A stretch of 31,303 bases of DNA from Oscillospiraceae bacterium (GTDB lineage: Bacteria; Bacillota_A; Clostridia; Oscillospirales; Oscillospiraceae), in NCBI GenBank assembly GCA_017398105.1, contig JAFQHF010000097.1:1-31303 (forward strand), written 5' to 3'. The notes below the pieces were generated by a model. That model did not search any database. It was given only the letters and a program-made list of their open reading frames with translations, and was not told where the DNA came from. Shown piece after piece: positions 1,760-24,343 of this stretch; the first letter of the stretch is position 1, and each line of letters begins with the position of its first letter. Both the position numbers and the translations under genes were made by a program.

Positions 1760-1786
1760 TATCTTAAAAACAGGAGATTTTTCATT

Positions 1787-5316: not shown

Positions 5317-5397
5317 ATGATCGCTTTGCGTACGATGGAACGGTAGGGCGGGGGCATGACCCCGCCCTACAGATATACGTGCGCGAAACGATAATTG
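5317..5397. repeat. Short REP-type element between terminase and portal
   Basis: Imperfect terminal repeats AATGATCGCTTTGCG (5317-5331) and CGCGAAACGATAATT (5383-5397) enclose a single palindrome, GTAG-GGCGGG-GGCATGA-CCCCGCC-CTAC (5343-5370). It separates genes that are normally adjacent and translationally coupled in phages. Confidence 0.75.
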
Positions 5398-5427
5398 CAG
5401 AAAAGCACAATCGTGAAAGGAGACAGG

Positions 5428-6561
5428 ATGTTGAAACGGAAGAAGGAAAAGGCGGCTGTGGCGGCGGTTTGTCAGTTGCGGTGCGGGGATACCCATCCCT
5501 TTGGGGCCATGCGCGGCTTTGTGCCTCTGGGCGGAGGTGAGGAGCGGGTGTATCGGGAGATGCGGGAAGCGATTCCGGTGCTGGATGCGGCTGTGGGAAA
5601 AATGGTGCGACTGTGCGGAGGATTCCAGGTGAAATGCCGGAATGAAGCAGCCCAGAGAAGGCTCAACGATTTTTTACAGAATATGCCCTGCGGACATGGA
5701 CAGCGGGGAATTGAAAGCTTCCTGAGCGGGTATCTGGACAGCCTGCTGACCTATGGACGGGCTGTGGGAGAGCTGGTGGTGGCAGGCGGAAAGCTCCGGG
5801 CGGTGTGCTGGGGGGATGTGACCAGGCTGGAAGTTCAGGAGGAAGCAAGCGGCCTGGAGGTCGTGCTGTGGGGGATGGACGAGCATGGGCTGATGCGGCC
5901 TCTGCCTTACCAGCAGCTGCTTCTGTTTACAGCCTGGCATCCAGAGCCTGCCCATCCTTACGGGGTCAGTATGTTCCGGGGAATGCCCTTTCTGGCGGAC
6001 ATTCTGCTGAAAATCTACAATACCATCGGTTCCAATTGGGAACGGGCGGGAAATGTCCGCTACAGCGTGATCTGCAAGGGCGGCGAGGAGCTGGACCCTG
6101 TGCAGGCCCAGGAACGGGGAAAGGCTGTGGCGGAAGCCTGGGCCCGGGCGATGGAGGACAGCAAAAACGGCACCGTCCGGGATTTTGTGGCGGTGGGAGA
6201 TGTGGAAATCAAAGTGATCGGCGGTGAGGCGCCCATTCTGGATTCGGAGGTTCCTGTGCGGCAGATCCTGGAGCAGCTGGTGGCCAAGACCGGATTGCCT
6301 CCGTTCCTGCTGGGACTGAACTGGAGCACAACGGAGCGGATGAGCACCCAGCAGGCAGATCTGCTGACCAGTGAATTATGGGCCCTGCGGCGGGCGGTGG
6401 AGCCTGCCATGGGGAAGATCTGCCGGACATTTCTGGCGTTGGAGGGGCTGGATGACCGGTTTGAAATTCTGTGGGATGACATCAGCCTGCAGGATATGAC
6501 CCTGGAAGCACAGACGGAGCTGTACCGGGCCCAGGCGGAGCGGTATCGGGCGGAGATGTAA
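5428..6561 (+). CDS. Phage portal protein
   Basis: A 377-residue portal, the ring through which DNA enters the capsid. It is recognised by position between terminase and head protease, by length, and by blocks such as LLLFTAWHPEPAHPYGVSMF (about residues 169-188), LLKIYNTIGSNWERAGN and the C-terminal TTERMSTQQADLLTSELW, where portal proteins carry their long helices. The ATG at 5428 follows AAAGGAGACAGG; an upstream non-ATG extension is less likely. The C-terminus is short: it stops soon after LEAQTELYRAQAERYRAEM, where many portals continue 30-60 residues. Repeat elements lie on both sides. Arginine codons are almost all CGG/CGC, as in the terminase and unlike the C1 genes. Confidence 0.85.
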   Translation: MLKRKKEKAAVAAVCQLRCGDTHPFGAMRGFVPLGGGEERVYREMREAIPVLDAAVGKMVRLCGGFQVKCRNEAAQRRLNDFLQNMPCGHGQRGIESFLSGYLDSLLTYGRAVGELVVAGGKLRAVCWGDVTRLEVQEEASGLEVVLWGMDEHGLMRPLPYQQLLLFTAWHPEPAHPYGVSMFRGMPFLADILLKIYNTIGSNWERAGNVRYSVICKGGEELDPVQAQERGKAVAEAWARAMEDSKNGTVRDFVAVGDVEIKVIGGEAPILDSEVPVRQILEQLVAKTGLPPFLLGLNWSTTERMSTQQADLLTSELWALRRAVEPAMGKICRTFLALEGLDDRFEILWDDISLQDMTLEAQTELYRAQAERYRAEM

Positions 6562-6571
6562 GGAAGCGTAA

Positions 6572-6860
6572 ATTATCGTTTGTCGGCATGGGCCGACGAC
6601 CAATGCGTGCTCGGTGCAGCGGGAATCGTTACTGCCCAAACCCGCTCGGTATCGTTACTACGGTAAATGATTGTTTATCCATAAATATCTGTAGGGCGGG
6701 GTCATGACCCCGCCGACCCGCTATCGAGGATTGCCGCGGATGGTATGATTGCATTTGTTACATTTTGCACCGTTTTTTGCCTGGGCAGTTTCGCAACCTG
6801 CTCGGCGGGGTCATGACCCCGCCCTACAGTAGCATGCGTTGATTGTAGGACAAACGATAA
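6572..6860. repeat. Composite repeat: two elements between portal and protease genes
   Basis: The 329-base gap holds no gene. Part one (about 6572-6680) starts TAAATTATCGTTTGTCGG, contains CATGGGCCGACGACCAATGC and CCCAAACCCGCTCGG, and ends GTAAATGATTGTTTATC; a related copy lies at 26054-26155. Part two has two palindromes with feet pointing outwards (GTAG at 6691, CTAC at 6824-6827), each with the core GGCGGGGTCATGACCCCGCC, and ends with GACAAACGATAATTT (6849-6863). Confidence 0.75.
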
Positions 6861-6890
6861 TTTTATGAATGAATCAAGGAGGTATTGGAT

Positions 6891-7787
6891 TTGGAAATCA
6901 GGAAAGCGGCGCAGGCCGTTACGTCCGGGGCACCCAGTGCCCTGCAGCTGGAGAAGATCAATGCTCTGGCAAAGGCACGGCTGAATGGGGAGCAGGTATA
7001 TGTGTTCTCCGTGCGGCTGTGCGACGATCAGGTGGACAGGGATCATGAGCGGTTTGACACAGCGGCACTTCCGGAGCTGGCGAAGCTGTTCATCGGCAAG
7101 ACCGGTATCGTCGATCATAAGTGGAGCGCCGCCAATCAGGTAGCCCGGATCTTTGAGACCCAGGTGGTGCAGGAAGAGGGGACAAGCTTCGTGAAGGCCT
7201 GGGCCTATATCCGGCGGGGCGGAAGCAATGAGGAAATCATCGCCGATATTGAGGCGGGGATCAAAAAGGAGGTCTCCGTGGGCTGCGCCATGGGGCGGTG
7301 CATTTGCTCTGTTTGCGGCAGCGAGTACGGTACCTGCGGGCATAGGAAGGGCGAAAGCTATGACGGACAGGTCTGCTGCGGGATTTTGCAGGAGCCTGTG
7401 GATGCTTATGAATTCTCCTTTGTGGCGGTGCCTGCCCAGCGGGAGGCTGGGGTGATCAAGGCACTGGGCGGCAGAAAAAACTGCCTGAAGGAGCTGGCAG
7501 AGGAATTCGGCGCGCAGGCGGAATACCGGGAGCTTTACAAACAGGCACAGCTGGGAAAACAGTACCGGCGGGAACTGGAAGACAGTGTGGTGCAGCTGGG
7601 TCTTGCTCTGGAACTGGGTGTGGCGGAGCCTGTGCTGCGGAGTCTGGCGGGAAGCGCTGCTTCGGAGGATCTGATGGCACTGAAGGAAGCCCTGAACGGA
7701 CGGCTGGAGGAAATGCTTCCTGTAGTAACCCAGCTGGGCGGTAAATGCGGCAGGGAAGAATGCGTGGAGAGCGGATTTTTAATTTGA
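6891..7787 (+). CDS. Phage prohead protease with C-terminal scaffold-like region
   Basis: A 298-residue serine protease of the herpesvirus-assemblin/HK97 prohead-protease type, which matures capsids. The likely catalytic His is in GIVDHKW (His76) and the Ser in KKEVSVGC (Ser129). A Cys/His cluster follows (CICSVCGSEYGTCGH), as in many Firmicute phage versions, then DAYEFSFVAVPAQREAG. Residues from about 190 on are Leu/Glu-rich and helical in character, consistent with a fused scaffold. AAGGAGG at 6876-6882 fits the TTG at 6891 (8-base spacing) better than the TTG at 6885 (2 bases); no suitable ATG exists. Promoter input is unclear because the gene sits directly behind a 290-base repeat block. 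Confidence 0.85.
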   Translation: MEIRKAAQAVTSGAPSALQLEKINALAKARLNGEQVYVFSVRLCDDQVDRDHERFDTAALPELAKLFIGKTGIVDHKWSAANQVARIFETQVVQEEGTSFVKAWAYIRRGGSNEEIIADIEAGIKKEVSVGCAMGRCICSVCGSEYGTCGHRKGESYDGQVCCGILQEPVDAYEFSFVAVPAQREAGVIKALGGRKNCLKELAEEFGAQAEYRELYKQAQLGKQYRRELEDSVVQLGLALELGVAEPVLRSLAGSAASEDLMALKEALNGRLEEMLPVVTQLGGKCGREECVESGFLI

Positions 7788-7790
7788 GAA

Positions 7791-7945
7791 GGAAAATGAT
7801 CGTTTGCCGGTCTGGGTATCAACCAATCGTAGGGGCGGATTTTTAATCCGCCCTCCGGATACCGATAAATAAACGGCGCATACTTCGGCAGGGATTAGGG
7901 CGGATTGGAAATCCGCCCCTACGGAAGGAAATTATAAAAACTACG
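7791..7945. repeat. REPIN-like element between protease and capsid genes
   Basis: Starts AAAATGATCGTTTGCCGG (7795-7812). Two palindromes with outward feet follow: GTAG-GGGCGGATTTTTAATCCGCC (7829-7852) and GGCGGATTGGAAATCCGCC ending CCTAC at 7922. The left half is nearly the same as the elements at 18660 and 21322. The spacer contains CCGGATACCGATAAATA. Confidence 0.8.
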
Positions 7946-8003
7946 GAAGAATCCGGATGGTTCCGGTTCTGATATATTTTATTTTTACAGGAGGAGTTTG
8001 AAA

Positions 8004-9029
8004 ATGGGTTACGATAATCTGAGACTGGAAAAGGGTATGTATCGTCAGGAGGGTATGAGCTTTACCCAGGTGCTGGAGTCTCTGGACCCCAGTGAGAATT
8101 ACCGGGGTACGGCACTGGAAGGCACCGACGCGTTCCAGCGGCAGCTGAAGCGGTTCGGTATCCGGGCAAAGGGTGCCGGTTCTTCTCCCGTGGAGAAGTT
8201 CTTCCGGACCATGGATTCTGCGGTGCTGTTCCCTGAGTACATCGCACGAACCGTTCGTCAGGGCATGGAGGAAAATGACATCCTGCCTGCCATCACCGCA
8301 ACCACCACCGTCATCGATGCCATGGACTACCGCTCCATCTATTCCAATCCTACAGATGATGACAAGGCACTGCAGGATGTGGCGGAAGGTGCGGCCATTC
8401 CTGAGACTGAGGTGAAGACCAAGGAGCATCTGGTGAGCCTGACCAAGCGGGGCAGAATGCTGGTGGCTTCCTATGAGGCACTGCGGTTCCAGAAGCTGGA
8501 TCTGTTCAGCGTTATGCTGCGACAGATCGGTGCGCATATTCAGAAGCAGCAGCTGGCGGATGCGGTGAAGGTGCTGATCGAGGGTGACGGCAATGACAAT
8601 GCGGCTGTAGCTTACACCATTGGAACCAGCCCCATCTCCGGCACCAAGGGTACTCTGGGTTACGATCAGTTGGTGGAATTCTGGGGTCAGTTCGATCCCT
8701 ACACCATGAACACCATTCTGTGTTCCACTGCCACCATGACCCAGATGCTGAAGATCCCCGAGCTGCAGAATCCTCTGACCGGCCTGAATTTCCAGGGCAC
8801 CGGCAAGCTGACCACCCCTCTGGGCGCTCAGCTGCACCGGACTTCCGCAGTGGATGACGGTGTGATCATCGGTCTGGACAACCGGTATGCGCTGGAACTG
8901 GTGCGTGCCGGTGATGTGCTGGTGGAATATGACAAGCTCATTGACCGTCAGTTGGAACGGGCTGCCATCACTTCCATTTCCGGCTTCGGCAAGATCTGCG
9001 ACGGTGCGGCCTGCGTGCTGAACGTATGA
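8004..9029 (+). CDS. Phage major capsid protein (HK97 fold)
   Basis: A 341-residue capsid protein in the canonical position after the protease. Features fitting HK97-type major capsid proteins are the N-terminal helical, presumably cleaved or delta region (residues 1-60), the block PVEKFFRTMDSAVLFPEYI, the spine-helix-like segment LTKRGRMLVASYEALRF, and a C-terminal strand rich in Val/Ile (DDGVIIGLDNRYALELV). The ATG at 8004 follows ACAGGAGGAG with 8-9 bases spacing; the in-frame TTG at 7998 overlaps that ribosome site and is rejected. The coding frame is clean. An encapsulin-type nanocompartment is an alternative, but the flanking portal, terminase and connector genes favour a phage head. 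Confidence 0.85.
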   Translation: MGYDNLRLEKGMYRQEGMSFTQVLESLDPSENYRGTALEGTDAFQRQLKRFGIRAKGAGSSPVEKFFRTMDSAVLFPEYIARTVRQGMEENDILPAITATTTVIDAMDYRSIYSNPTDDDKALQDVAEGAAIPETEVKTKEHLVSLTKRGRMLVASYEALRFQKLDLFSVMLRQIGAHIQKQQLADAVKVLIEGDGNDNAAVAYTIGTSPISGTKGTLGYDQLVEFWGQFDPYTMNTILCSTATMTQMLKIPELQNPLTGLNFQGTGKLTTPLGAQLHRTSAVDDGVIIGLDNRYALELVRAGDVLVEYDKLIDRQLERAAITSISGFGKICDGAACVLNV

Positions 9030-9382
9030 TGACGGAGGCGGTGTTTGCTCAGGCGCTGCTGCTGACCGGGGAACTGGAGCTGCGGCAGATGGAACTGTTG
9101 CGGCTCCTGTGCGGCAGCGCGGTGTCGTCTCTGGCACTCCGGCTTCGGGACGGGCTGACGGCGGAGGACTGCGGCGGTGATTTTATTGCGGCTGCCAGTC
9201 TGTATGCCCTGGCGGCGCTGGAAAGCGCGGAGGCAGCCGGCGGCGTGGAGGAATTCAGGGCCGGTGATCTGACAGTGAAGCAGGGAGCCTCCGGAGATGC
9301 TGCCGCAAAAAGCCTGGAAAAACAGGCAGAGCGGATCATTGCGCCTTATGTGAAGGACAGATTTGCGTTTTTGGAGGTATGA
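9026..9382 (+). CDS. Probable head-tail connector (gp6-like)
   Basis: 118 residues, starting in the ATGA overlap with the capsid gene (9026-9029). It is short, acidic and alpha-helical in composition (ELRQMELLRLLCGSAVSSLA and AASLYALAALESAE). The C-terminal part SLEKQAERIIAPYVKDRFAF resembles the end of small connector proteins that bind below the portal. Position right after the capsid gene is the strongest evidence; the sequence alone would not be decisive. Confidence 0.6.
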   Translation: MMTEAVFAQALLLTGELELRQMELLRLLCGSAVSSLALRLRDGLTAEDCGGDFIAAASLYALAALESAEAAGGVEEFRAGDLTVKQGASGDAAAKSLEKQAERIIAPYVKDRFAFLEV

Positions 9383-9383
9383 T

Positions 9384-9728
9384 ATGCGCAGGCAGGTGGA
9401 ACGGATTTTGAACCGGTATGGTACGGATCTGACCCTTGTCAGCGAAACGGAAACCAAAACCGCCCGGGGTTTTTTCCGGGCGGTGAATTCCAAAAGCTGG
9501 CAGAGTATGGAAAGCGAAGCAAGCCTTCTGGGAGAAATTACCAGAGGACAGTATGTGTACATGGGGCCTGTGGATGTGCCGGTGCAGGAAGGGGATACGC
9601 TGGTGCTGGGACAGAAGGCCTATCTGTTCCGCCGGGTGGAGCCTTACTATTTCGGCAATGAGGCGGTATACCGGTGGGGACTGTGCGTGGAGAAGGGTGT
9701 GAATGATATTTGGGGTACTCGATCCTAG
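9384..9728 (+). CDS. Probable phage head-closure/neck protein
   Basis: 114 residues, starting one base after the previous stop with GGAGG at 9373-9377. It is beta-rich: RYGTDLTLVSETETK, VDVPVQEGDTLVLGQKAYLF and YRWGLCVEKG. This pattern, with an N-terminal ILNRYG and a central barrel, is typical of small head-closure proteins, and the gene is in the right place between connector and tail-completion genes. It overlaps the next gene by 19 bases. An exact family is not recognised. Confidence 0.5.
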   Translation: MRRQVERILNRYGTDLTLVSETETKTARGFFRAVNSKSWQSMESEASLLGEITRGQYVYMGPVDVPVQEGDTLVLGQKAYLFRRVEPYYFGNEAVYRWGLCVEKGVNDIWGTRS

Positions 9729-10411
9729 AACTGGTGCTCAGACGGCTGCGGGAGGCCGGTTTTGCTGCGGATGTGGCCTATCCCGGTCAGAAATTTCCCC
9801 GGATCAGCGATACCGTGGCGGCGGTGCACATTGAACGGGTGGATCGGGCCAATCTGACGGTGACGGTGGAGATCAGCATTCTGTGCCCTGCGGACATGGG
9901 CGGTACTGCCTGCGAGGTGGAGGCCCTGCGGGCTACGGAGATCCTGCGGTGGTCCGGCGCAGTTTGCGTGCAGAACGGGTGCACCTACGATGGTGTCGCT
10001 CAGGTGTATGTGGTCAGTGTGCTGGCGACCTTCACCGGCGTGACGGAGGCGGAGGACTGCATGATCTGGCAGGGCTTTTACTGCTATATCGACGGCATGG
10101 CCCACCGTTTTGCGGTGGAATTCACGGCGGATAATGACCGGGGCGGTCAGGCGGAATATGAGATGGGGCAGAAGGAGCCTACGCTGGTCAGCTTTGGCAG
10201 CAATCTGTGGAAGATTCAGCTGGTGGAGATGATCCCCTGCGGGTCACCGGAGCTTCCGGAACCGGATGGGGCCTTTGAACTGAAAATCGTGACGGAACAA
10301 ACCACGGAAATTTACACGGGCTGCCGGTGGCTGACGGAAAAACGGGAGATTTCCAAGCAGGGGCTGCGGCTGACCCGAACGGGTGCGGCGCTGAGACGGG
10401 AGGTGGAATGA
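9710..10411 (+). CDS. Phage tail-completion-like protein with extra C-terminal domain
   Basis: About 233 residues. Residues 1-110 (ILELVLRRLREAGFAADV, PGQKFPRISDTVAAVHIERV, then alternating strands) look like a tail terminator/completion protein. Residues 115-233 form a second beta-rich domain with several aromatics (GFYCYIDGMAHRFAVEF) and end in TRTGAALRREVE; I do not recognise it, and it could be a fused tail-tube-like domain. No ATG or GTG is available: the start must be TTG at 9710 or ATT at 9707, within the end of the preceding gene, with AGAAGG upstream (9691-9696). Translational coupling is therefore likely. Confidence 0.55.
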   Translation: MGYSILELVLRRLREAGFAADVAYPGQKFPRISDTVAAVHIERVDRANLTVTVEISILCPADMGGTACEVEALRATEILRWSGAVCVQNGCTYDGVAQVYVVSVLATFTGVTEAEDCMIWQGFYCYIDGMAHRFAVEFTADNDRGGQAEYEMGQKEPTLVSFGSNLWKIQLVEMIPCGSPELPEPDGAFELKIVTEQTTEIYTGCRWLTEKREISKQGLRLTRTGAALRREVE

Positions 10412-10412
10412 G

Positions 10413-10775
10413 GTGGCGTTTTTGAGCTATAAGACTTTCGTCTGGCCCCGGAATCCCCACACCTATGTGGAGGAGACCAGCCGGGAGCCCAAATTCCACA
10501 CGTCCGAGGGCATCACCTATTATGACGGGATGGGGGATATGAAGCGCATCATCCGGGGCAGCGGCGTGTTTTACGGTGAGAATGCCTATGACCGGTTCAA
10601 GGCGCTGGCTCTGCTGATGGAGCAGAAGGAGGCAGGCAATCTGGAACATCCCATCTGGGGTATCCGGTACTGCTACTTTACCAAGCTGGTGCTGAATCAG
10701 GAGCCGAAGGAAAATTTTGTCAGCTACAGCTTCGAGTTTACACAGGCGCATACCAATGGCGTGGTGCCGGTTTAA
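10413..10775 (+). CDS. Phage baseplate/tail protein, DNA-circulation N-terminal-like
   Basis: 120 residues from a GTG at 10413 behind GGGAGGTGG. The arrangement GSGVFYGENAYDRFKAL, then LEHPIWG, then LNQEPKENFVSYSFEF resembles the N-terminal domain of Mu-like DNA-circulation/baseplate proteins, where a G-x-F-x-G strand, an HP turn and a final FEF strand recur. It is the last phage gene: no tape measure, tube, sheath, baseplate wedge, fibre or lysis gene follows, and the strand switches at the next terminator. It starts one base after the upstream stop. Confidence 0.55.
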   Translation: MAFLSYKTFVWPRNPHTYVEETSREPKFHTSEGITYYDGMGDMKRIIRGSGVFYGENAYDRFKALALLMEQKEAGNLEHPIWGIRYCYFTKLVLNQEPKENFVSYSFEFTQAHTNGVVPV

Positions 10776-11905: not shown

Positions 11906-12457
11906 TCATGCGCCGTATACGGCGATGCCCAGAACGGCGGCGATGCAGATCAGGGTGATGGGGGAGATCTTCTTTTTCAGCGCATATTTGCTGCCGAACA
12001 GAATGAGTGCCAGCACTGCGGTCAGGCCTGCGGCTTTCCGGTCGGGATGTCCGGGGAAACAGTTGGAAGCCACCATTTCCGCACCTGTGGCCAGGATAAT
12101 GCCGATAACGCAGGGCTTTATGCCCCGGAGAACGGCCTGCACGTAAGGATTGTCCATGGCGGATTTCAGGAGGATCATTACCAGAAGAATGATCACGAAG
12201 GCCGGAAGCACCACTGCTGTGGTGGCCAGTACCGCTCCCGGGAAGCCGCCCTGGCTGCTGCCGACGTAGGTGGCCAGATTGACCATGATGGGGCCGGGGG
12301 TGCTTTCGCTGACGGCGATCATATAGCTCAGGGTTTCATCGCTAAGCCAGCCGTAGGAAAGAACGATGTCCCGGATCAGGGGAATGGCGCCGTAGGCACC
12401 GCCGAAGGCAAAGCAGCCCACCTGGAGAAATCCCCAAAACAGATCAAAATAAATCAT
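11906..12457 (-). CDS. Chromate-transporter-family protein, half-size, second of pair
   Basis: 183 residues, one CHR domain. Typical blocks are FGGAYGAIPLI (about residues 18-28), SESTPGPIMVNLATYVG and LPAFVIILLVM; about five or six hydrophobic segments follow. Half-size CHR proteins work as pairs and correspond to the two halves of full-length ChrA, which exports chromate by proton motive force; in gut Clostridia the physiological substrate is unknown. The start ATG at 12457 overlaps the stop of the upstream partner (12454-12457), so synthesis is coupled. No terminator is evident before the repeat element downstream. Confidence 0.9.
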   Translation of the reverse strand: MIYFDLFWGFLQVGCFAFGGAYGAIPLIRDIVLSYGWLSDETLSYMIAVSESTPGPIMVNLATYVGSSQGGFPGAVLATTAVVLPAFVIILLVMILLKSAMDNPYVQAVLRGIKPCVIGIILATGAEMVASNCFPGHPDRKAAGLTAVLALILFGSKYALKKKISPITLICIAAVLGIAVYGA

Positions 12458-13017
12458 GCCCTGTCTCCTTTCTTCGTCCGGAAAAACAGGATCAGACTGA
12501 AGCAGCCGGCCAGGAGCATCAGACTCAGGGAACTGAAATTCCAGGACAGCAGATTTGCCGCGGTGATAAGCACCAGCGCGGCCAGAAGAATGCCTTTGGA
12601 AAGCGGTGTTTTCTTCATTTTCTGCAGCATATTCAGCCCGGCGTTGAGGATCAGCAATCCTACAGCCAGGCGGATGCCTCTGAAGGCACTGGCAATGACC
12701 GTGATCTCCAGAAAATTGTCCAGGAACATGGAAATGACATAAAGGATCACAAAAGAGGGAAGCACCACGCCGACGGTGGCAGCCACTGCACCGGCCATGC
12801 CCTTTTGATGATAGCCCACATAGGTGGCGCAGTTGATGGCGATGGGGCCGGGGGTAGATTCGGCCACCACGGTGACGTTCATCATTTCCTCATGGGTGAT
12901 CCATTTTTTCTTGTCTACACAGCTGTCTTCAATCAGGGCAATCATGGCGTAGCCGCCGCCGAAGGTAAACAGGCCGATCTTTGCGAAGGTCAGAAACAAT
13001 TCCAGCAAGGGGATCAC
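12454..13017 (-). CDS. Chromate-transporter-family protein, half-size, first of pair
   Basis: 187 residues with one CHR domain: FGGGYAMIALIED (about residues 19-31), AESTPGPIAINCATYVGYHQ (about 52-71), VVLPSFVILYVIS, then hydrophobic segments and a basic tail. It is the upstream partner of the gene at 11906 and only about 25-30% alike by eye, as expected for the two non-identical halves of a ChrA-like transporter. The start is GTG at 13017, supported by AAAGGAG just upstream; no ATG is suitably placed. It is expressed from the promoter at 13033-13061. Confidence 0.9.
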   Translation of the reverse strand: MIPLLELFLTFAKIGLFTFGGGYAMIALIEDSCVDKKKWITHEEMMNVTVVAESTPGPIAINCATYVGYHQKGMAGAVAATVGVVLPSFVILYVISMFLDNFLEITVIASAFRGIRLAVGLLILNAGLNMLQKMKKTPLSKGILLAALVLITAANLLSWNFSSLSLMLLAGCFSLILFFRTKKGDRA

Positions 13018-13135: not shown

Positions 13136-13164
13136 TTGACAAAAAAGGAATATTTTACTACAAT
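13136..13164 (+). promoter_or_regulatory. Strong promoter of the ZTP-riboswitch transcript
   Basis: TTGACA (13136-13141), exactly 17 bases, TACAAT (13159-13164). Transcription should start near 13171, immediately before the riboswitch aptamer. Confidence 0.88.
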
Positions 13165-13171
13165 AATGATA

Positions 13172-13248
13172 CCATCCTGCATAACTGACGGATTTCGCGG
13201 AATCACCGCGGGGGAGTGCGGGAGATGCATGCCGACCGTCTGGGCAAT
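13172..13248 (+). ncRNA. ZTP (pfl) riboswitch aptamer
   Basis: Senses ZTP/AICAR ribotide (ZMP), which accumulates when 10-formyl-THF is short. Visible parts in order: P1 left side CATCCTGCA (13173-13181); the conserved ACTGACG; hairpin CGCGG/CCGCG (13196-13210); the conserved GGGGAG; P1 right side TGCGGGAGATG (13217-13227); then the pseudoknot-forming 3' module GCCGACCGTCTGGGCAA (13231-13247), matching the pfl consensus (GCCG, CTGGGC). Its last bases also form the left side of the terminator at 13242, giving mutually exclusive structures. Ligand binding should therefore switch expression on. Confidence 0.9.
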
Positions 13249-13280
13249 TCAGTTTGAGGCTGGATTGCCCCTTTTCTTTT
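13242..13280 (+). terminator. Riboswitch-controlled terminator
   Basis: GGGCAATTC (13242-13250) pairs with GGATTGCCC (13262-13270; one G-T), followed by CTTTTCTTTT. The left arm is shared with the CTGGGCAA end of the ZTP aptamer. Confidence 0.88.
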
Positions 13281-13355
13281 GGGCGGCATGGCAGACAGTG
13301 TTTGCAAATGCCCGTGATTCAGCTGAAAAGGATATTTTTTGTACAGAGGTGTGTT

Positions 13356-14687
13356 ATGAAAAAGATCAAGACCTTATCTGAAAGCGATTTTCTGAAGCTG
13401 TTTTTTACGCTCCTGTCCGCAGCATTCCTGGTGGCGGCATTGTTTATGCCGGACCGGGATCAGATGCTCGCCGGCTTCTGGCAGATCCTGAGCCAGCCCG
13501 GTAAGATCTCCACCAATGATTTCGCCCTGGGCGGCTTCGCGGCTACCTTCCTGAATATGGGACTGGTGGGCATGTGCTTTGTGGCGTTGTTCGTTCTGCT
13601 GAAGGCCACTGCCAACAATGTGTCCACACTGGCCTTTGTGCTGACCCTGGGCTTCAGCTCCTGGGGAATCACCGTGCTGAATATCTGGCCCACGATCCTG
13701 GGCGTGGTTGTTTACAGCCTGGTCCGCAAGGAAAAGCTGGGTGCCAACATCAATGCCATGATGTTCTCCACCGGCATTGCTCCTCTGATCACGGATCTGC
13801 TGGTTCGCTATCCCAATGCGGAAGTGGTGGGCTTCAATCTGCCCGGCCTGCTGGTGACCCTGCTGGTGGGCTTCCTGATCGGCTTCCTGCTGCCTGCCGG
13901 TCTGGGCCATGCCCCCAATGTCCATAAGGGCTTTGACCTGTATTCCGCAGCGGTTCCCGTGTGCTTCTTTGCCTTCTTCCTGAATGCTACGCTGTATAAG
14001 ACCCTGGGCATTGCCCTGCCTGCTGCACCCGGCGCGGAGACGCTGAGCGTGGCATCCCAGTCCATTGTGAATGTGTTCTGCCTGATCGTTTTCGGATCGT
14101 GCGTGGTGCTGGCGCTGGCTCTGGGCTGCAGGCCGAAGGACTATCTGTCTCTTCTGACCGCACCTGCCCATGTGGGTTCCGTTTCCTCTGCGAAGGGTAA
14201 GGAAGTATTCCTGATGAATGTGGGCGTGTACGGCCTGTTCATCCTGGCTTACTATAACCTCATCGGCGCTACCTTCAACGGCATCACCTTCGGCATCATC
14301 TTCTGTATGCTGTGCACCTGCAATTCCGGCTCCCATCCCGGTAATGTCTGGCCCATTATGCTGGGCTATGTGGTGGCAGCCACGGCCTTCGGCTGGCTGT
14401 CTCAGCTGGCAGGCGGCACATTCTCTCTGGCCATCAATGCCCAGGCGATTGCCATCGGCCTGTGCTTTGCCAATGGTCTGAGCCCCATCGTCAGCAAGTA
14501 CGGCTGGTTCTGGGGCATGGTCAGTGCCATTATGCACTATCTGCTGGTGACCTCTGTGCCCAACATGCACGGCGGCTACTGCCTGTACAACGGCGGCTTT
14601 ACGGCTGCTGTGATCTGCCTGATCCTGGTGCCGGAGCTGGAGCGCTTCGTCAAGACCAAAGAGGAGAAGAAGGCCCTGAAGGGCTGA
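13356..14687 (+). CDS. Polytopic membrane protein, DUF1576-like, ZTP-regulated (copy 1)
   Basis: 443 residues with roughly ten or more hydrophobic segments: an inner-membrane protein of the type I associate with DUF1576 (family name from memory). Function unknown; a transporter is likely. Conserved between both copies: MPDRDQML (about 34-41), FLNMGLVGM, SSWGITVLNIWPTILGV, VHKGFDLYSAAVPV, the polar motif CTCNSGSHPGN (Cys320-Asn330) inside an otherwise hydrophobic region, and HGGYCLYNGGFTAA near the end. ATG at 13356 with AGAGGTG upstream; further in-frame codons upstream lie in the riboswitch leader. The ZTP riboswitch implies expression when formyl-THF is low, so folate, a purine or a one-carbon donor are candidate substrates. 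Comparative genomics has used the name impX for a predicted pfl-controlled transporter; whether this is the same family is unverified. Confidence 0.8.
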   Translation: MKKIKTLSESDFLKLFFTLLSAAFLVAALFMPDRDQMLAGFWQILSQPGKISTNDFALGGFAATFLNMGLVGMCFVALFVLLKATANNVSTLAFVLTLGFSSWGITVLNIWPTILGVVVYSLVRKEKLGANINAMMFSTGIAPLITDLLVRYPNAEVVGFNLPGLLVTLLVGFLIGFLLPAGLGHAPNVHKGFDLYSAAVPVCFFAFFLNATLYKTLGIALPAAPGAETLSVASQSIVNVFCLIVFGSCVVLALALGCRPKDYLSLLTAPAHVGSVSSAKGKEVFLMNVGVYGLFILAYYNLIGATFNGITFGIIFCMLCTCNSGSHPGNVWPIMLGYVVAATAFGWLSQLAGGTFSLAINAQAIAIGLCFANGLSPIVSKYGWFWGMVSAIMHYLLVTSVPNMHGGYCLYNGGFTAAVICLILVPELERFVKTKEEKKALKG

Positions 14688-14753
14688 TACCCGGCAATAT
14701 TTCTCATTTCCCCAAGAAACACTTCACCGGAACGGACAGAGGAGACATCTGCC

Positions 14754-16082
14754 ATGAAACGCTGGAATACCCTATCAGAACGTGACTTTTTGAAGTATTT
14801 CTTCCTTTGCTTCAGCTTCAGCTTCCTGGCGGCGGCATTGTTTATGCCGGACCGGGGACAGATGCTGTCCGGTCTCTGGAAGATCCTGGGAAGCCCCACC
14901 AAGGCATCTACCAGCTTTTTCTCCATCGGCGGCTACAGCGCAACCTTCCTGAACATGGGTCTGGTGGGTATGATCTGTACGGCGTTGTATTGGATCCCCG
15001 GTGAAAAGTCCAATTCCGCTGCCACGCTGGTGACGATCCTGACCACTGGCTTTGGCTCCTGGGGCATTCACATCCTGAATATGTGGCCCACGATCCTGGG
15101 CGTGCTGCTGCACTGCCTGGTGAAGAAAGAGCCTTTGGGAAAACATACCAATGCAATGCTGTTCTCCACAGGTCTGGCTCCCTTTATTTCGGAGCTGATG
15201 GTTCGCTATCCCCATGCGCAGGTGGTGGGATTTACACCCGGCGGTGTTCTGCTGGCGGTTCTTGTGGGCGTTCTTGTGGGCTTTTTCCTGCCTGCCGGGC
15301 TGGACAATTCTCCGAAGGTGCATAAGGGCTTTGACCTGTATTCTGCCGCGCTGCCTGTGGGCATGACGGCATTTCTGATGCAGGGATGTCTGTACCGTGC
15401 CATGGGCGTGGAGATTCCGGCGGCGGTATCGGATCTGTCCGTGGCATCGCCGGAGATTACCAATACCTTCTGCGTGATCCTGTTTTCCTTGTGCGTGATC
15501 GTGGCGTTTGCCATGGGCTGCCGGCCCCGGGATTACTGGAACATGATGTATGCGGCAGTCCCGGCCACCAATTTCTCGGCGGTATACGGCAATGCGGTGT
15601 TTCTGATGAATGTGGGTCTGTATGGCTTTTTCATTCTGGGGTACTACAACTGGATCGGCGCCACCTTCAACGGTGTGACCTTCGGCGTTATGTTCTGTAT
15701 GCTGGCAACCTGTAATTCCGGCTCCCATCCGGGCAATATCTGGCTGATCACGCTGGGCTACGGACTTGCCTCCAAGCTGTTCCAGGTGCTGTCGCCTCTG
15801 ACCGGCGGTGAATTTATCCAGTATCTGAATTCCCAGTCCATCGTGGTGGGCTTGTGCTATGCCAACGGCCTGAGCCCCATTGCTGACGAGTATGGATGGG
15901 CCTATGGTCTGGTGGCGGCGATGTTCCATTTCTGTATGGTTACCACAGTGCCGGAGCTGCATGGCGGTATGTGCCTGTACAATGGCGGTTTCACCGCTGC
16001 ACTGGTGTGCCTGCTGATGCTTCCGGGTCTGGAGCGCCACTTCCGGACAAAGCATGAGCGCAGAGCGCTGAAAAGCAAATAA
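14754..16082 (+). CDS. Polytopic membrane protein, DUF1576-like, ZTP-regulated (copy 2)
   Basis: 442 residues, colinear with the preceding gene over its whole length and clearly a tandem duplicate (roughly 60% alike by eye). It keeps MPDRGQML, FLNMGLVGM, NMWPTILGV, RYPHAQVVGF, VHKGFDLYSAALPVGM, ATCNSGSHPGN and HGGMCLYNGGFTAA. Shared motifs in both copies point to functional residues, notably the SHPGN turn and the HGG..LYNGGF block. GAGGAG (14740-14745) lies before the ATG; the 66-base gap has no terminator, so both genes should share the riboswitch transcript, which ends at 16091-16124. The two proteins could act as a heterodimer or have diverged in substrate. Function not known. Confidence 0.8.
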   Translation: MKRWNTLSERDFLKYFFLCFSFSFLAAALFMPDRGQMLSGLWKILGSPTKASTSFFSIGGYSATFLNMGLVGMICTALYWIPGEKSNSAATLVTILTTGFGSWGIHILNMWPTILGVLLHCLVKKEPLGKHTNAMLFSTGLAPFISELMVRYPHAQVVGFTPGGVLLAVLVGVLVGFFLPAGLDNSPKVHKGFDLYSAALPVGMTAFLMQGCLYRAMGVEIPAAVSDLSVASPEITNTFCVILFSLCVIVAFAMGCRPRDYWNMMYAAVPATNFSAVYGNAVFLMNVGLYGFFILGYYNWIGATFNGVTFGVMFCMLATCNSGSHPGNIWLITLGYGLASKLFQVLSPLTGGEFIQYLNSQSIVVGLCYANGLSPIADEYGWAYGLVAAMFHFCMVTTVPELHGGMCLYNGGFTAALVCLLMLPGLERHFRTKHERRALKSK

Positions 16083-16090
16083 TGAAATCC

Positions 16091-16124
16091 AAAGCGGACA
16101 GTCGGTAAAAGGCTGTCCGCTTTT
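16091..16124 (+). terminator. Terminator of the ZTP-regulated operon
   Basis: AAAGCGGACAG (16091-16101) pairs with CTGTCCGCTTT (16113-16123), then further Ts, 9 bases after the stop codon. Confidence 0.88.
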
Positions 16125-16440: not shown

Positions 16441-16590
16441 GGAAAAATGCATCCGGATGTGGTATCTTACATTCAGATCCTGACATTAAGCGGCAAGCTG
16501 CGTGAAAGGTGCGAATATGGTTTCCAGCCGCAGACCATGTCTGCGGACGTTTCCGTTGCCGTGCCTGAAAAGGTACGGTTATTTTTGTTT
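16441..16590 (+). promoter_or_regulatory. Attenuator-type leader, possible unclassified riboswitch
   Basis: CCGTGCC (16559-16565) and GGTACGG (16572-16578) form a terminator stem followed by TTATTTTTGTTTT, directly before the ribosome site of the next gene. TTGCCG (16556-16561), overlapping that stem, can instead pair with CGGCAA (16491-16496) and close a junction that contains the perfect hairpin CCGCAGAC-CAT-GTCTGCGG (16528-16546). This is the layout of a transcription-attenuating riboswitch. It does not match the TPP, cobalamin, FMN, lysine, SAM or molybdenum-cofactor consensus as I know them. The ligand is unknown, and no clear promoter was found upstream. Confidence 0.6.
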
Positions 16591-16604
16591 TGGAGGAAAA
16601 AGAT

Positions 16605-16879: not shown

Positions 16880-17911
16880 ATGAAAAAGCTCCGTAATGTA
16901 CTGGCCCTGCTGCTGGCTTTGCTGACCCTTACTGGCTGCGGCCAGGGCGCTCCTGCTGAAACCAGTCCTGCCGAGACCACTGCGGCTCCCACCGCAGCAG
17001 CCCAGGAGGATTCCAACGCTTCCGCACCTGTCAACGTCATGGTTCTGAACGGCACGACCGGCTTTGGTATGGCCAATCTGATGGATGCCGCTGCCAAGGG
17101 CGAAGCCGCTCAGGCGTATAACTTCACCGTGGAAACCGATGCCAGCAACATTGTGGCAGGTCTTGCCAACGGGTCCGTGGATATTGCCGCACTGCCCACA
17201 AACGCTGCTGCAACGGTCTACAACAAGACCCAGGGCAAGGTGCAGGTGCTGGCTCTGAATACCCTGGGCGTACTGTACCTGGTTACCGATGGCTCAGTGG
17301 CCGTTGAAAGCATGGCAGATCTGGCAGGTCAGACCGTCTATGCGCCTGCCCAGAATCCCAGCTTTATTTTCCAGTATCTGTGCCGGGAAAACGGTCTTGA
17401 GGATGTGACCATTGACAATACCTATGCCCAGCCTGCAGATCTGAATACTGCCGTGGCAGCCGGGGAGGTGTCCCTTGCAGTGCTGCCGGAGCCTATGGTC
17501 ACGGTGGCGAGATCCAAAAATCCGGATCTGGTGGTTGCACTGGATCTGACCGCCGAGTGGGATAAGGTGGCGCCTGCCGGTTCTCTGGTTCAGGGCTGTG
17601 TGGTCGTCCGCAAAGACTTCGTGCTGGAAAATGCTGCCGCTGTCAATACCTTCCTGGAAGAATACGGTGCATCCATTGAGGCACTGACCGCAGACATCGA
17701 GGGCACTGCCGCCAAGATCGAAGCAAACGGCATCTTTGCCAAGGCGGCTGTGGCAGCAAAGGCCATTCCCAACTGTAACGTCTGCTTCATTACCGGAGAA
17801 GAAATGCAGGCAGCCCTGTCTGAATTTTTGACCATTATGCACGCCGTTGCGCCTGCCAGCGTGGGCGGCAGTGTTCCCGGTGATGACTTCTACTGCATCC
17901 TGAACGGATGA
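16880..17911 (+). CDS. ABC importer substrate-binding lipoprotein (NMT1/SsuA-like)
   Basis: 343 residues. A lipoprotein signal is visible: basic MKKLRN, hydrophobic core, lipobox LTGC with the modified cysteine at residue 20, then an Ala/Thr/Pro-rich linker to about residue 50. The mature part has the periplasmic-binding fold type II layout of NMT1/SsuA proteins: VDIAALPTNAAATVYNK (about residues 98-114), DLAGQTVYAPAQNPSF and a later block LAVLPEPMVTVARS. Possible ligands for the family include sulfonates, nitrate, taurine and thiamine precursors; the sequence does not decide. It is followed in overlap by its permease. Neither a TPP riboswitch nor thiamine genes are nearby, which weakens a thiamine role. 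Confidence 0.88.
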   Translation: MKKLRNVLALLLALLTLTGCGQGAPAETSPAETTAAPTAAAQEDSNASAPVNVMVLNGTTGFGMANLMDAAAKGEAAQAYNFTVETDASNIVAGLANGSVDIAALPTNAAATVYNKTQGKVQVLALNTLGVLYLVTDGSVAVESMADLAGQTVYAPAQNPSFIFQYLCRENGLEDVTIDNTYAQPADLNTAVAAGEVSLAVLPEPMVTVARSKNPDLVVALDLTAEWDKVAPAGSLVQGCVVVRKDFVLENAAAVNTFLEEYGASIEALTADIEGTAAKIEANGIFAKAAVAAKAIPNCNVCFITGEEMQAALSEFLTIMHAVAPASVGGSVPGDDFYCILNG

Positions 17912-18657
17912 AGCGGGGGCCGGATTTCAAGGTAAAAAACCTGCTGGCGATCCTGTTCTGGGCGGCGGTATGGCATATTCTGGCGGTGTACGTGGACAAT
18001 TTTCTGCTCCTTCCCACGCCGCTTCAGGTGCTGGGCCGGTGCGGGCAGCTGATGGCCACAGCGGAATTCTGGCACATTACAGCAGTATCCATCGGACGAA
18101 TCCTGCTGGGTGTGCTGTGGGCCATGGTTCTGGGGCTGGGACTTGCGGTTCTGACCACGGTCAGCTCTCTGGCGAATGCCCTGGTTGCGCCGGTGATGAC
18201 GGCAGTGCAGGCTGCGCCGGTGGCCTCCTTTGCCATTCTGGTGCTGATCTGGCTGGAACGGGATGCTGTTCCGGTGCTGATCTGCGGCATGATGGTGCTT
18301 CCGGTGGTGTGGAGCAATGTCTGCACCGGTATCCGACAGACGGATGGGCAGCTTTTGGAGCTGGCAAAGGTTTATCGGCTGCCAAAAATGCGCATCCTCA
18401 GACGGATCTATGTGCCCTCGGTGCTGCCCTATTTCCGGGCGGCCTGCGGCAGCGCCCTGGGTCTGGGCTGGAAGGCGGGCATCGCGGCGGAGGTGCTGAC
18501 GGTGCCGAAGGCATCCATGGGCCGGATGATCTCGGAAGCCAAGCTGTATCTGCTGACGGAAGACCTGTTTGCCTGGACGCTGATGGTGGTTGTCCTGAGC
18601 CTTCTGCTGCAAAGACTCGTCCTTCGCCTGCTGAAGACCGGAAGATCGGAACCGTGA
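17908..18657 (+). CDS. ABC importer permease (SsuC/TauC-like)
   Basis: 249 residues, about six membrane segments, BPD_transp_1 fold. The cytoplasmic coupling (EAA) loop is visible as LLELAKVYRLPKMRILRRIY followed by VPSVLPYFRA (about residues 151-180). The ATG overlaps the stop of the binding protein (17908-17911), a sign of a fixed-ratio complex. The cognate ATPase gene is displaced 213 bases downstream by a REPIN-like element, unusual for a transporter operon. The substrate is that of the binding protein and is unknown. Confidence 0.9.
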   Translation: MKRGPDFKVKNLLAILFWAAVWHILAVYVDNFLLLPTPLQVLGRCGQLMATAEFWHITAVSIGRILLGVLWAMVLGLGLAVLTTVSSLANALVAPVMTAVQAAPVASFAILVLIWLERDAVPVLICGMMVLPVVWSNVCTGIRQTDGQLLELAKVYRLPKMRILRRIYVPSVLPYFRAACGSALGLGWKAGIAAEVLTVPKASMGRMISEAKLYLLTEDLFAWTLMVVVLSLLLQRLVLRLLKTGRSEP

Positions 18658-18659
18658 CG

Positions 18660-18841
18660 GGTAAATGATCGTTTGTCGGTCCAGGTATCAGCCAATCGTA
18701 GGGGCGGATTTTTAATCCGCCCTCCGGATACCGACAAATATACGGGGAATTATACGGCGCATGCTACGGCGGAGTTAGGGCGGATTGAAATTCCGCCCCT
18801 ACAGAATCCGTATGAACCAGTGCGCTGAATAATCATTTATC
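18660..18841. repeat. Full-length REPIN-like element inside the ABC operon
   Basis: A complete 180-base unit. Terminal repeats are TAAATGATCGTTTGTCGG on the left and AATAATCATTTATC on the right. GTAG-footed palindromes lie at 18698-18723 and 18777-18802 (CTAC end). It has the same length as the unit at 21324-21503 and differs from it at about eight positions. It separates the permease gene from the ATPase gene. Confidence 0.85.
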
Positions 18842-18870
18842 AGTGTGAACGTTTAAAGGGGGGAAGGCGA

Positions 18871-19434
18871 ATGCTGAAACTTACCAATATCTGCCACAGC
18901 TTTGGGGATAAAAAGGTGCTGGAAGGCATTGGCCTGACGCTGCTTCCGGGACAGCGGATTGCGCTCATGGGGCCCTCCGGAACGGGAAAGACCACTGTGC
19001 TGCGGATCGCTGCGGGAATCCTGAAGCCCTCCTCCGGCAGCGTGGAAAACACCTTCCGGAAGACGGCTGTGGTCTTTCAGGAGCCCAGGCTGCTGCCCTG
19101 GCGGACGGCAGCAGAGAATGTGAATCTGGTGCTGCGTGACAGCCGGGAGACGCTGGAAACAGCAAAATCCCACCTGAAACAGGTGGGATTGGCAGCGGAC
19201 TGGGACAAGTACCCGGCACAGCTCTCCGGCGGAATGCAGCAGCGGGTGGCGCTGGCGAGGGCATTGGCCGCCGGGGGGGATCTTCTTGTTCTGGATGAGC
19301 CCTTCAAGGCCATGGATGAAACGCTTCGCTATCAGGTCATTGGGACAGTGGCGCAGACAAAAGCCGCTGTCCTGCTGGTGACCCATGATGCGGAAGAAGC
19401 CAGAGCTCTGGGCTGTGAAATTGTAAAATTATAA
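18871..19434 (+). CDS. ABC importer ATPase (SsuB/TauB-like), short
   Basis: 187 residues. Walker A GPSGTGKTT (about residues 34-42), Q-loop VFQEPRLLPWRTAAENV, signature LSGGMQQRVALARALA, Walker B LLVLDEPF and H-loop LLVTHDAEEA are all intact. It is short for the SsuB/TauB group (about 240-260), mainly because it ends right after the H-loop region, so the C-terminal regulatory tail is missing. ATG at 18871 after AAAGGGGGGAAGG. It follows the importer genes but lies behind a repeat element, so transcription must pass two strong palindromes; one effect could be a lower ATPase yield. It ends at the bidirectional terminator at 19442. Confidence 0.88.
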   Translation: MLKLTNICHSFGDKKVLEGIGLTLLPGQRIALMGPSGTGKTTVLRIAAGILKPSSGSVENTFRKTAVVFQEPRLLPWRTAAENVNLVLRDSRETLETAKSHLKQVGLAADWDKYPAQLSGGMQQRVALARALAAGGDLLVLDEPFKAMDETLRYQVIGTVAQTKAAVLLVTHDAEEARALGCEIVKL

Positions 19435-22453: not shown

Positions 22454-24250
22454 TTATACTTCCTTGCTCTTGGTGGCGATCTCCATCAGGCACTTGGCCA
22501 TGAAGGCATCGGGGGTCATGGCACCCAGATCCTCGCCCTTGCGGGTACGGACGGAAACGGTGCCGTTCTCCATATCCCGGTCGCCGATGACCAGCATATA
22601 GGGAATCTTCTGCATCTGTGCCTCGCGGATCTTGTAGCCCAGCTTTTCGCTGCGGCAGTCGGTCTCTGCGTGGATGTTCACGGCGTTCAGCTTGTCGGCC
22701 AGCTCCTTGGCATAGGCGTGGGCGCGGTCGGTGATGGGCAGAACCTTGACCTGGGTGGGCATCATCCACAGGGGCAGAGCACCGGCGTAGCGCTCGATCA
22801 GGTAAGCCAGGGTACGCTCGTAGCAGCCCAGAGAGGTGCGGTGGATGATATAGGGGGTCTTCTTCTGACCATCGGAGTCGGTGTACTCCATGCCGAACTT
22901 CTGGGCCAGCAGCATGTCGATCTGAATGGTGACGATGGTGTCTTCCTTGCCGAAGACGTTCTTGTACTGGATGTCCAGCTTGGGACCGTAGAAAGCGGCC
23001 TCATCGATGCCAATGGTGTATTCCACGCCCAGGTTGTCCAGGATCTCACCCATGACGCGCTGTGCCTCTTCCCACTGCTCGGCAGTGCCTTCATACTTGA
23101 CACCGGCACGGGCGGGATCCCACTGGGAGAACCGGAAGGAGCAGTTTTCCAGCATGCCCACGGTATCCAGGCAGTACTTAGCCAGCTCCAGGCAGCCCTT
23201 GAACTCCTCTTCCAGCTGGTCGGGGCGGAGCACCAGGTGGCCTTCGGAAATGGTGAACTGGCGGACACGGATCAGGCCGTGCATCTCGCCGGAGTCCTCA
23301 TTGCGGAACAGGGTGGAAGTCTCGCCCAGACGCATGGGCAGGTCACGGTAGGAACGGGCACGGTTCAGGTAGACCTGATACTGGAAGGGGCAGGTCATGG
23401 GACGCAGGGCGAAGCACTCCTTCTCCTCATCGTAGGGATCGCCCAGGATAAACATGCCGTCCAGGTAGTGATCCCAGTGGCCGGAGATCCGGTACAGATC
23501 CCGCTTTGCCATCAGGGGGGTCTTGGTCAGCAGGTAGCCCCGCTTCTGCTCTTCATCCTCCACCCAGCGCTGCAGGGTCTGGATGACTCTTGCGCCCTTG
23601 GGCAGCAGAATGGGCAGGCCCTGGCCGATCTCTTCCACGGTGGTGAAGAATTCCAGTTCGCGGCCCAGCTTGTTATGATCGCGCTTCAGGGCTTCTTCCT
23701 GCTGCTTCAGGTAAGCATCCAGCTCGTCCTTGCTGGGGAAGCCGATGCCGTAGATTCGCTGCAGCATCTTGCGGTTGGAGTCGCCGCGCCAGTAAGCGCC
23801 GCAGGACTTGGTCAGCTTGAAACCGTTGTGGCGCAGACGGCCGGTGTGATCCAGGTGAGGGCCGGCACACAGGTCGGTGAATTCGCCCTGGGTGTAGAAG
23901 CTGATGACGGCATCCTCGGGCAGGTCTTCAATGAGCTCCTTCTTGTAGGGCTCGTTGTTGGCGACCGCCCAGGCGATGGCATCCTCCCGGGACTTTTCGG
24001 TGCGCTCCAGCTTAATGCGCTCCTTGACGATCTTCTTCATCTCTGCCTCGATCTTGGTCAGATGCTCGGGGGTGAAGGAGAAGGGAGCATCAAAGTCGTA
24101 GTACCAGCCTTCATCGATGGCGGGGCCGATGGCCAGCTGAACCTCGGGCCACAGACGCTTGACGGCCTGGGCCATCACATGGGAGCTGGTGTGCCAGAAG
24201 GTCTTGCGGTATTCGGGATTTTCAAAGGTGTACAGATTTGCGTTTTCCAT
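22454..24250 (-). CDS. thrS: Threonyl-tRNA synthetase without TGS domain
   Basis: 598 residues. Charges tRNA-Thr in the cytosol. The editing domain starts at once: HTSSH (His20/His24) with the partner block FTDLCAGPH. The class II core follows: motif 2 RNEDSGEMHGLIRVRQFT, the zinc Cys in RPMTCPFQY, and motif 3 IIHRTSLGCYERTLAYLIE. The C-terminal anticodon-binding domain (PTQVKVLPITDRAHAYAKEL) is complete. Most bacterial ThrRS have about 640 residues with an N-terminal TGS domain of about 60; here ATG 24250 (AAGGAGG upstream) begins after it, and no upstream frame supplies it. Expression is governed by a T-box leader, so it responds to uncharged tRNA-Thr. Confidence 0.96.
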   Translation of the reverse strand: MENANLYTFENPEYRKTFWHTSSHVMAQAVKRLWPEVQLAIGPAIDEGWYYDFDAPFSFTPEHLTKIEAEMKKIVKERIKLERTEKSREDAIAWAVANNEPYKKELIEDLPEDAVISFYTQGEFTDLCAGPHLDHTGRLRHNGFKLTKSCGAYWRGDSNRKMLQRIYGIGFPSKDELDAYLKQQEEALKRDHNKLGRELEFFTTVEEIGQGLPILLPKGARVIQTLQRWVEDEEQKRGYLLTKTPLMAKRDLYRISGHWDHYLDGMFILGDPYDEEKECFALRPMTCPFQYQVYLNRARSYRDLPMRLGETSTLFRNEDSGEMHGLIRVRQFTISEGHLVLRPDQLEEEFKGCLELAKYCLDTVGMLENCSFRFSQWDPARAGVKYEGTAEQWEEAQRVMGEILDNLGVEYTIGIDEAAFYGPKLDIQYKNVFGKEDTIVTIQIDMLLAQKFGMEYTDSDGQKKTPYIIHRTSLGCYERTLAYLIERYAGALPLWMMPTQVKVLPITDRAHAYAKELADKLNAVNIHAETDCRSEKLGYKIREAQMQKIPYMLVIGDRDMENGTVSVRTRKGEDLGAMTPDAFMAKCLMEIATKSKEV

Positions 24251-24289
24251 GTGTTTTCCTCCTTGGTGTGATACCTTGCACAGACTGCT

Positions 24290-24317
24290 GTAGAGCGGGG
24301 TCATGACCCTGCCCTGC
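24290..24317. repeat. Decayed REP palindrome in the thrS leader
   Basis: GTAGAGCGGGGTCATGACCC continues to CTGCCCTGCA, with mismatches relative to the intact unit at 6691. It lies between the T-box terminator and the thrS ribosome site, so it is part of the mRNA and can fold. Confidence 0.65.
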
Positions 24318-24343
24318 AATCGGCATTTTTGGGGCAGGCAAAT

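Follow-up and report, generated by a model that had tools for sequence, protein, structure and literature searches.

The ZTP (pfl) riboswitch class, RF01750, controls enzymes of purine and formyl-tetrahydrofolate (formyl-THF) metabolism in the cases described in the accessible text of two papers (PMC2864571, PMC7266159). Here we analysed a 31,303-nt stretch of DNA from an Oscillospiraceae bacterium (GCA_017398105.1, contig JAFQHF010000097.1; hereafter the window, meaning the whole stretch), in which a ZTP riboswitch precedes a tandem pair of genes for DUF1576 membrane proteins. This element resembles the described ones in aptamer sequence and structure, in its overlap with a terminator and in its ON logic, and it adds one member to an established class; unlike them, it controls an uncharacterised membrane protein family. 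A literature search for DUF1576 found no paper. From predicted folds and gene content we consider it somewhat probable that the subtype of DUF1576 found in the window, type 1, is a formate channel made when 10-formyl-THF is short.

Several described transport systems invite comparison with these proteins. Amt/Rh channels and urea transporters (with RnfD/NqrB) are alike in predicted fold and in having two homologous halves, but their Pfam families do not match the DUF1576 pair. FocA/NirC/FdhC channels (FNT, PF01226) are alike in the job proposed here, whereas DUF1576 belongs to a different Pfam family; FocA is a pentameric aquaporin-like channel according to a title cited in PMC12449052. ImpX is a transporter likewise proposed through its riboswitch. 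An earlier note on this DNA, made from its sequence, had named impX as a predicted pfl-controlled transporter, possibly of the same family. That identification did not hold: the available part of PMC4418817 describes ImpX as a riboflavin transporter under an FMN riboswitch, and on this description we dropped it as a lead. All-Rfam scans gave no FMN riboswitch above cut-off in the window or in 31 DUF1576 loci (11 + 20; 30 distinct places). We found no literature joining the ZTP riboswitch with impX or with formate transport, and PMC12773636, checked for transporter terms, contains none. A ZTP-controlled channel of Amt/urea fold for formate entry would be a new form of otherwise known systems.

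A ZTP switch precedes two paralogous DUF1576 genes

A cmscan search of the window against all Rfam returned RF01750 with 59.9 bits (E 1.6e-7; gathering score 39 bits) as a full-length match covering model positions 1–86, and as the sole Rfam family above its own cut-off. The match lies at 13171–13252 on the forward strand, where the earlier note had placed the aptamer (13172–13248). The promoter ahead of it (Table 1) is a consensus assignment, because 4 promoter-like sites were observed in the region against 2.5 expected. The first arm of the terminator stem (5' side, GGGCA...) doubles as the 3' arm of the final aptamer hairpin. Aptamer and terminator thus exclude each other, and ligand should turn the switch ON. 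Rfam match, consensus scan and shared arm thus agree with the promoter, aptamer and exclusive terminator that the earlier note had described, and the sequence supports a transcriptional ON switch. A terminator sharing an aptamer arm was present in 41 of the 43 ZTP leaders found in DUF1576 loci (see below; window included), and the remaining 2 were without the exact motif that the pattern search required. Since shuffled downstream sequence passed the same test in 239 of 820 trials, this count by itself is modest evidence.

The two DUF1576 genes are probably the entire transcription unit, since the upstream chromate-transporter genes face the other way and a hairpin followed by TTTT ends at 16124; read-through into the TM1266-family gene at 16590 is possible. 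Copies A and B are 58% identical and both score far over the 25-bit cut-off of PF07613 (Table 1), in keeping with the paralogous pair that had been noticed first. PF07613 was the only Pfam family to match the pair at E ≤ 0.001; there was no match to an Amt, UT or FNT (PF01226) family.

DUF1576 proteins have a predicted Amt/Rh-urea transporter fold

The DUF1576 proteins consist of two halves that are homologous to each other. The AF2 model of copy A reached a pLDDT of 82.9, and the closest folds to two AlphaFold models were AmtB, Rh and urea transporters, which share the Amt/Rh-UT-RnfD fold of two related halves; a sensor Amt protein was also among the matches. Solved structures searched with the A3 sequence profile gave 0 matches at E ≤ 1. 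FocA/FNT structures were not among the 50 fold matches listed, a listing that is no evidence of their absence. What the models support is an Amt/Rh-urea transporter-RnfD fold built from a pair of homologous halves. An alignment of 208 type-1 and 138 type-2 rows, the two subtypes defined below, showed that N67, N109, T139, H190, Y196, N288, N308, H327, N330, H394, H405, Y411 and N412 are kept in both, while residue 191 is K in 99% of type 1 and D in 76% of type 2.

Most type-1 genes sit with one-carbon genes or carry their own ZTP switch

To describe the surroundings of the family, we took the best 80 of 112 relatives confirmed in a contig scan, picked by similarity (L001–L080), and the window, giving 81 loci. 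Four pairs among the 80 share an assembly. Their titles name Oscillospiraceae, Clostridia, Clostridiales, Eubacteriales or Bacillota, with one 'uncultured bacterium' and five Faecousia. The first DUF1576 gene starts less than 600 nt from the locus end in 8 of the 81. With a covariance model made from ten aptamers, one of them that of the window, we searched up to 900 nt upstream of that gene. A ZTP aptamer was found in 43 of 81 loci (42 of the 80 relatives); counting only the 73 loci whose upstream sequence exceeds 600 nt, the figure is 42. Neighbour clustering showed that 48 of 81 loci have fhs, fchA or folD no more than five genes upstream and in the same orientation; folD lies directly upstream in 38, and a ZTP aptamer stands between the two genes in 12 of those 38. 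The aptamer stands in 25 of the 33 loci that lack these one-carbon (C1) genes, the window counted among them, and is less common where the genes are present (18 of 48; Fisher p 0.0013). These counts support an arrangement in which the gene sits with fhs-fchA-folD or, if apart, mostly carries its own ZTP switch.

Upstream C1 genes, purE and ZTP were all missing from 8 of 81 loci. Three of these end at the gene (L013, L073, L074), four have none of the features (L039, L077, L078, L080), and L033 has folD and fchA nearby on the opposite strand. An additional ZTP aptamer was seen upstream of trigger-factor and fhs genes in L025 and L036, and FTHFS RNA (RF02981) in 2 of 11 loci scanned (L007, L029). 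Mapped onto a protein tree with 89 rows, the five arrangement labels, the outgroup's among them, take 33 changes, where shuffled labels average 46; aptamer and C1 neighbours have thus been gained and lost repeatedly while the one-carbon link persisted.

In 6 of 81 loci, DUF1576 is divergent from purE and each gene has its own ZTP aptamer; in five of the six, purE is followed by purF-like (below cut-off), purM, purN and purO-like genes, and the sixth locus ends earlier. Given the fhs-fchA-folD genes and this purine operon, the one-carbon link drawn in the earlier note is stronger than first seen. The divergent purE could also be taken to favour another one-carbon-linked solute (bicarbonate/CO2, formamide, glycine or a purine base), and the Wood-Ljungdahl pathway does use CO2. 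Purine bases are large for the Amt/urea fold, however, CO2 crosses membranes, and the link with fhs favours formate, so we regard such a solute as distinctly unlikely. An ammonium, urea or methylamine-type channel, wired to purine synthesis for its nitrogen need, would suit the nearest folds, AmtB, Rh and urea transporters. Yet Pfam yields DUF1576 and neither Amt nor UT, and the identified neighbour clusters include no nitrogen-assimilation gene, the recurrent ones being formate-activating and purine genes; this reading is rather unlikely.

As a separate observation, 15 of 81 loci have a Na+/H+-exchanger-like gene (PF00999, one member tested) as the next gene upstream of DUF1576, and 14 of the 15 have a ZTP aptamer (the 15 loci are L011, L014, L016–L019, L021, L029, L030, L040, L050, L053, L067, L069, L080).

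The one-carbon link was found in one of two subtypes

DUF1576 sequences were typed with two profiles, one of 25 and one of 14 sequences, type 1 being window-like and type 2 the other; typing is weak or borderline for L131 (324 vs 279 bits) and L129 (211 vs 251). Among 199 genomes of the phylum, DUF1576 was above cut-off in 20 (one of them, in G036, a fragment) and ZTP, under stricter filters, in 35. The two were adjacent in G004 only, with both on different contigs in G045 and G087, which rules out a universal DUF1576-ZTP link. Gene calls of the phylum loci were checked by stop-to-stop frames. The 38 type-2 loci (19 phylum, 19 family) have no fhs, fchA, folD, purE or purF in fetched flanks of varying length, which rules out a universal link with C1 genes, and none of the 32 scanned has a ZTP aptamer. 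The earlier note had tied its proposal to pfl, folate or purine links of DUF1576 genes elsewhere: they are lacking in type 2 and present in the window's subtype. An all-Rfam scan of the 20 phylum loci found only the ZTP aptamer of L097, a site that L012 and L128 also represent, and so ruled out other known riboswitches on these genes.

A protein of about 115 aa follows the type-2 gene in 11 of 19 phylum loci (L113, L115–L124), and one of two members tested with Pfam matched HATPase_c, which suggests signalling for type-2 genes. This follower and the sensor Amt protein among the fold matches could point to a sensing or regulatory role at the membrane in place of a channel function. Relatives of this ATPase were, however, found neither in the gene clusters of the 80 type-1 loci nor among the family-locus matches, and we consider a sensor very unlikely for type 1.

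Genomes with type 1 mostly lack the usual formate genes

We then compared gene content in two sets of genomes. For the family set, 81 genomes were drawn evenly around G004; this centre is included and was chosen for having type 1. The second set comprises the 18 genomes behind the first loci, and G004 is in both. DUF1576 was present in 25 of the 81 family genomes, all typed, and type 1 in eight (G004, G217, G245, G247, G265, G269, G278, G286). Of the eight type-1 loci, five have folD directly upstream; in G004 it is about 3.3 kb off, in G278 the gene lies at a contig end with a ZTP aptamer, and G217 has neither folD upstream nor ZTP. Among these genomes, which are without stated completeness and are not independent lineages, FNT (FocA-type) channels occur in 0 of 8 with type 1 against 43 of 73 others (p 0.0015). 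The CO dehydrogenase/acetyl-CoA synthase genes acsC/D, counted as PF03599 of at least 90 bits (25 genomes; weaker partial matches above cut-off in G231, G251 and G259 dropped), showed the opposite distribution, 7 of 8 against 18 of 73. Within these 25 acsC/D genomes, FNT is found in 0 of 7 with type 1 and 14 of 18 others (p 0.0007), and any of FNT, pyruvate formate-lyase (PFL) or Mo-oxidoreductase in 2 of 7 against 17 of 18. G268 has acsC/D without formate genes and without DUF1576.

PFL above cut-off (0 of 8 vs 14 of 73) and Mo-oxidoreductase (2 of 8 vs 37 of 73) did not differ significantly. In G269, a short fragment that scores 199.5 bits against the PFL model (cut-off 994) may represent a truncated PFL gene. 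Only six Mo-proteins, from type-1 and second-set genomes, were typed, and Mo counts elsewhere are not counts of formate dehydrogenase (FDH). The Mo-enzymes of G247, G286 and G011 were ruled out as FDH, being DmsA/YnfE-like; as the two in family type-1 genomes are of this kind, Mo/W-type FDH stands at 0 of 8. In the 18 second-set genomes FNT numbered 0, PFL above cut-off 0 and FDH 3. FNT is thus missing from all 8 family and 18 second-set type-1 genomes, as for a replacement. The true FDH alpha genes are at L167 (G009), L168 (G008) and L169 (G001); at L167, a group A [FeFe] hydrogenase gene follows immediately. The DUF1576 genes are purE-linked in G008 and G009 and a tandem pair in G001, with no C1 genes upstream of them within the DUF1576 loci analysed.

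These data agree with an independent 2024 human-gut survey, the consulted part of which reports that Faecousia and CAG-170 encode CO dehydrogenase/acetyl-CoA synthase, with Wood-Ljungdahl genes in Faecousia, and finds no homologues of FDH, PFL or known formate transporters in either (PMC11338639). FDH-less gut acetogens and formate-rich habitats are described in the accessible portions of PMC12449052 and PMC10103890.

A putative formate channel under alarmone control

With FDH, PFL and FocA-type channels mostly or wholly missing in the genomes examined, a formate entry route would be useful. The earlier note had proposed import of a folate, a purine or another one-carbon-related solute; its one-carbon link stands, and the channel-like fold and missing formate genes narrow these candidates toward formate. 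We infer that the proteins are channels through which a small solute passes, with formate (or formic acid) the likeliest candidate. In this scheme, a shortage of 10-formyl-THF would let AICAR nucleotides (ZMP/ZTP) accumulate, the aptamer would fold on binding them and prevent the terminator, and channels would be made through which external formate could enter the cell. From this formate Fhs would make 10-formyl-THF, which would serve purine synthesis and also the methyl branch of the Wood-Ljungdahl pathway in organisms that have it. Copy B may be a second channel of other affinity or gating, and K191 (mostly D in type 2) could help anion selection.

Several points weigh against a formate channel. 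The two fold models share sequences, three genomes with FDH still keep a DUF1576 gene, and the accessible survey text names GCH1, ribBA and thiC as other formate-related or formate-yielding genes (PMC11338639). DHPS is above cut-off in only 3 of 25 type-1 genomes (G265, G269, G008), so that folate import would be useful to most of them too. The chief competing explanation follows from this: type 1 would import folate (e.g. folate or 5-formyl-THF) that most of these genomes may need from outside, restoring the THF pool when ZTP rises, and ZTP switches do respond to 10-formyl-THF shortage in the available text of PMC7266159. Against it, the Amt/urea-channel fold is known from proteins that pass very small solutes, and folate exceeds 400 Da. 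The genomes with DHPS keep the gene, beside fhs-fchA-folD in G265 and G269. Folate import also leaves the absence of FNT unexplained, and we think it unlikely.

Formate is exchanged between microbes in the gut and rumen. Tentatively, and judging it nearly as probable as its opposite, we put forward type 1 as a new formate-channel family with an ammonium/urea rather than a FocA fold, switched by the ZTP alarmone and supplying the formate entry missing from the FDH-less Wood-Ljungdahl pathway of gut Oscillospiraceae, Faecousia among them. The locus offers a concrete gene, with regulation and fold, that could fill the formate gap of Faecousia and CAG-170. If the formate channel is real, the DUF1576 family gains a fold and a likely job, a second protein architecture performs the work of FocA, the ZTP regulon extends from enzymes to substrate uptake, and such gut bacteria have a new way to take up formate.

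Layout of the window and additional observations

The features of the window are collected in Table 1. The acsD-like and acsC-like genes at its right end indicate that the organism carries Wood-Ljungdahl genes. L002 is the locus second closest to copy A in the tree and reads fhs-fchA-folD-ZTP-DUF1576-DUF1576-TM1266; the window is therefore most simply an L002-type arrangement split by a prophage. L001, the nearest relative, is without C1 genes upstream, and so rearrangement is possible too.

Table 1 Features of the window around the ZTP-DUF1576 unit
Feature	Position	Strand	Evidence or remark
fhs, formate-THF ligase, cut by window start	3–1496	+	PF01268, 600 bits on 63–1496
fchA-type methenyl-THF cyclohydrolase	1724–2407	+	PF04961, 200 bits
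folD	2441–3313	+	PF02882 and PF00763
Phage head/packaging genes: terminase, portal, major head, baseplate-like	within 3761–10775		between folD and the ZTP unit
Split chromate-transporter pair	11906–13017	-	PF02417; divergent from the ZTP unit
Sigma-70-type promoter, TTGACA-17-TACAAT	13136–13164	+	consensus scan, 11/12
Intrinsic terminator with T-rich tail	13242–13280	+	13-bp stem 13242–13270, loop 3, tail CTTTTCTTTT
DUF1576 protein copy A, 443 aa, type 1	13356–14687	+	PF07613, 213 bits, two stretches
DUF1576 protein copy B, 442 aa	14754–16082	+	PF07613, 220 bits, two stretches; separate paralogue clade of 9 rows (tree)
Hairpin then TTTT, probable transcript end	16094–16124	+	read from sequence; not listed by the terminator scan
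TM1266-family regulator gene	at 16590		downstream of the pair
SsuA-like ABC system	16880–19434		replaces, in the window, the ECF S-component seen after TM1266 elsewhere
Threonyl-tRNA-synthetase-like gene	22454–24319	-	
P-loop ATPase, CooC-like by position	28436–29200	+	PF01656, PF13614; name inferred from neighbours
acsD-like, CO dehydrogenase/acetyl-CoA synthase subunit	29331–30272	+	PF03599, 129 bits
acsC-like subunit, cut by window end	30293–31303	+	PF03599, 168 bits; PF04060

A T-box leader at 24367–24584 on the reverse strand precedes the threonyl-tRNA-synthetase-like gene, with 68.4 bits (E 5e-13), below the gathering score of 93. Ahead of the TM1266-family gene lies a conserved leader of about 115 nt (window 16476–16592), in which TCCTGACATTAAG, a stem and CTGCGTGAAAGGTG are followed by a terminator-like hairpin and a T run. 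It also occurs in L001, L002, L014, L016, L020, L029, L034, L044, L056, L075, L077 and L078, and no Rfam family matched it above cut-off. Both-sided changes were found in 5 of 19 pairs among 13 aligned sequences, with a small covariation term (-0.47), and we regard the leader as a candidate for an uncharacterised riboswitch. In 16 of the 17 TM1266 loci, a member of a single protein cluster comes after TM1266 (e.g. L034, 7870–8430). FolT was rejected as its identity, since NCBIfam gave no match for one member tested; by Pfam (PF12822, one member tested) the cluster is an ECF transporter S-component.

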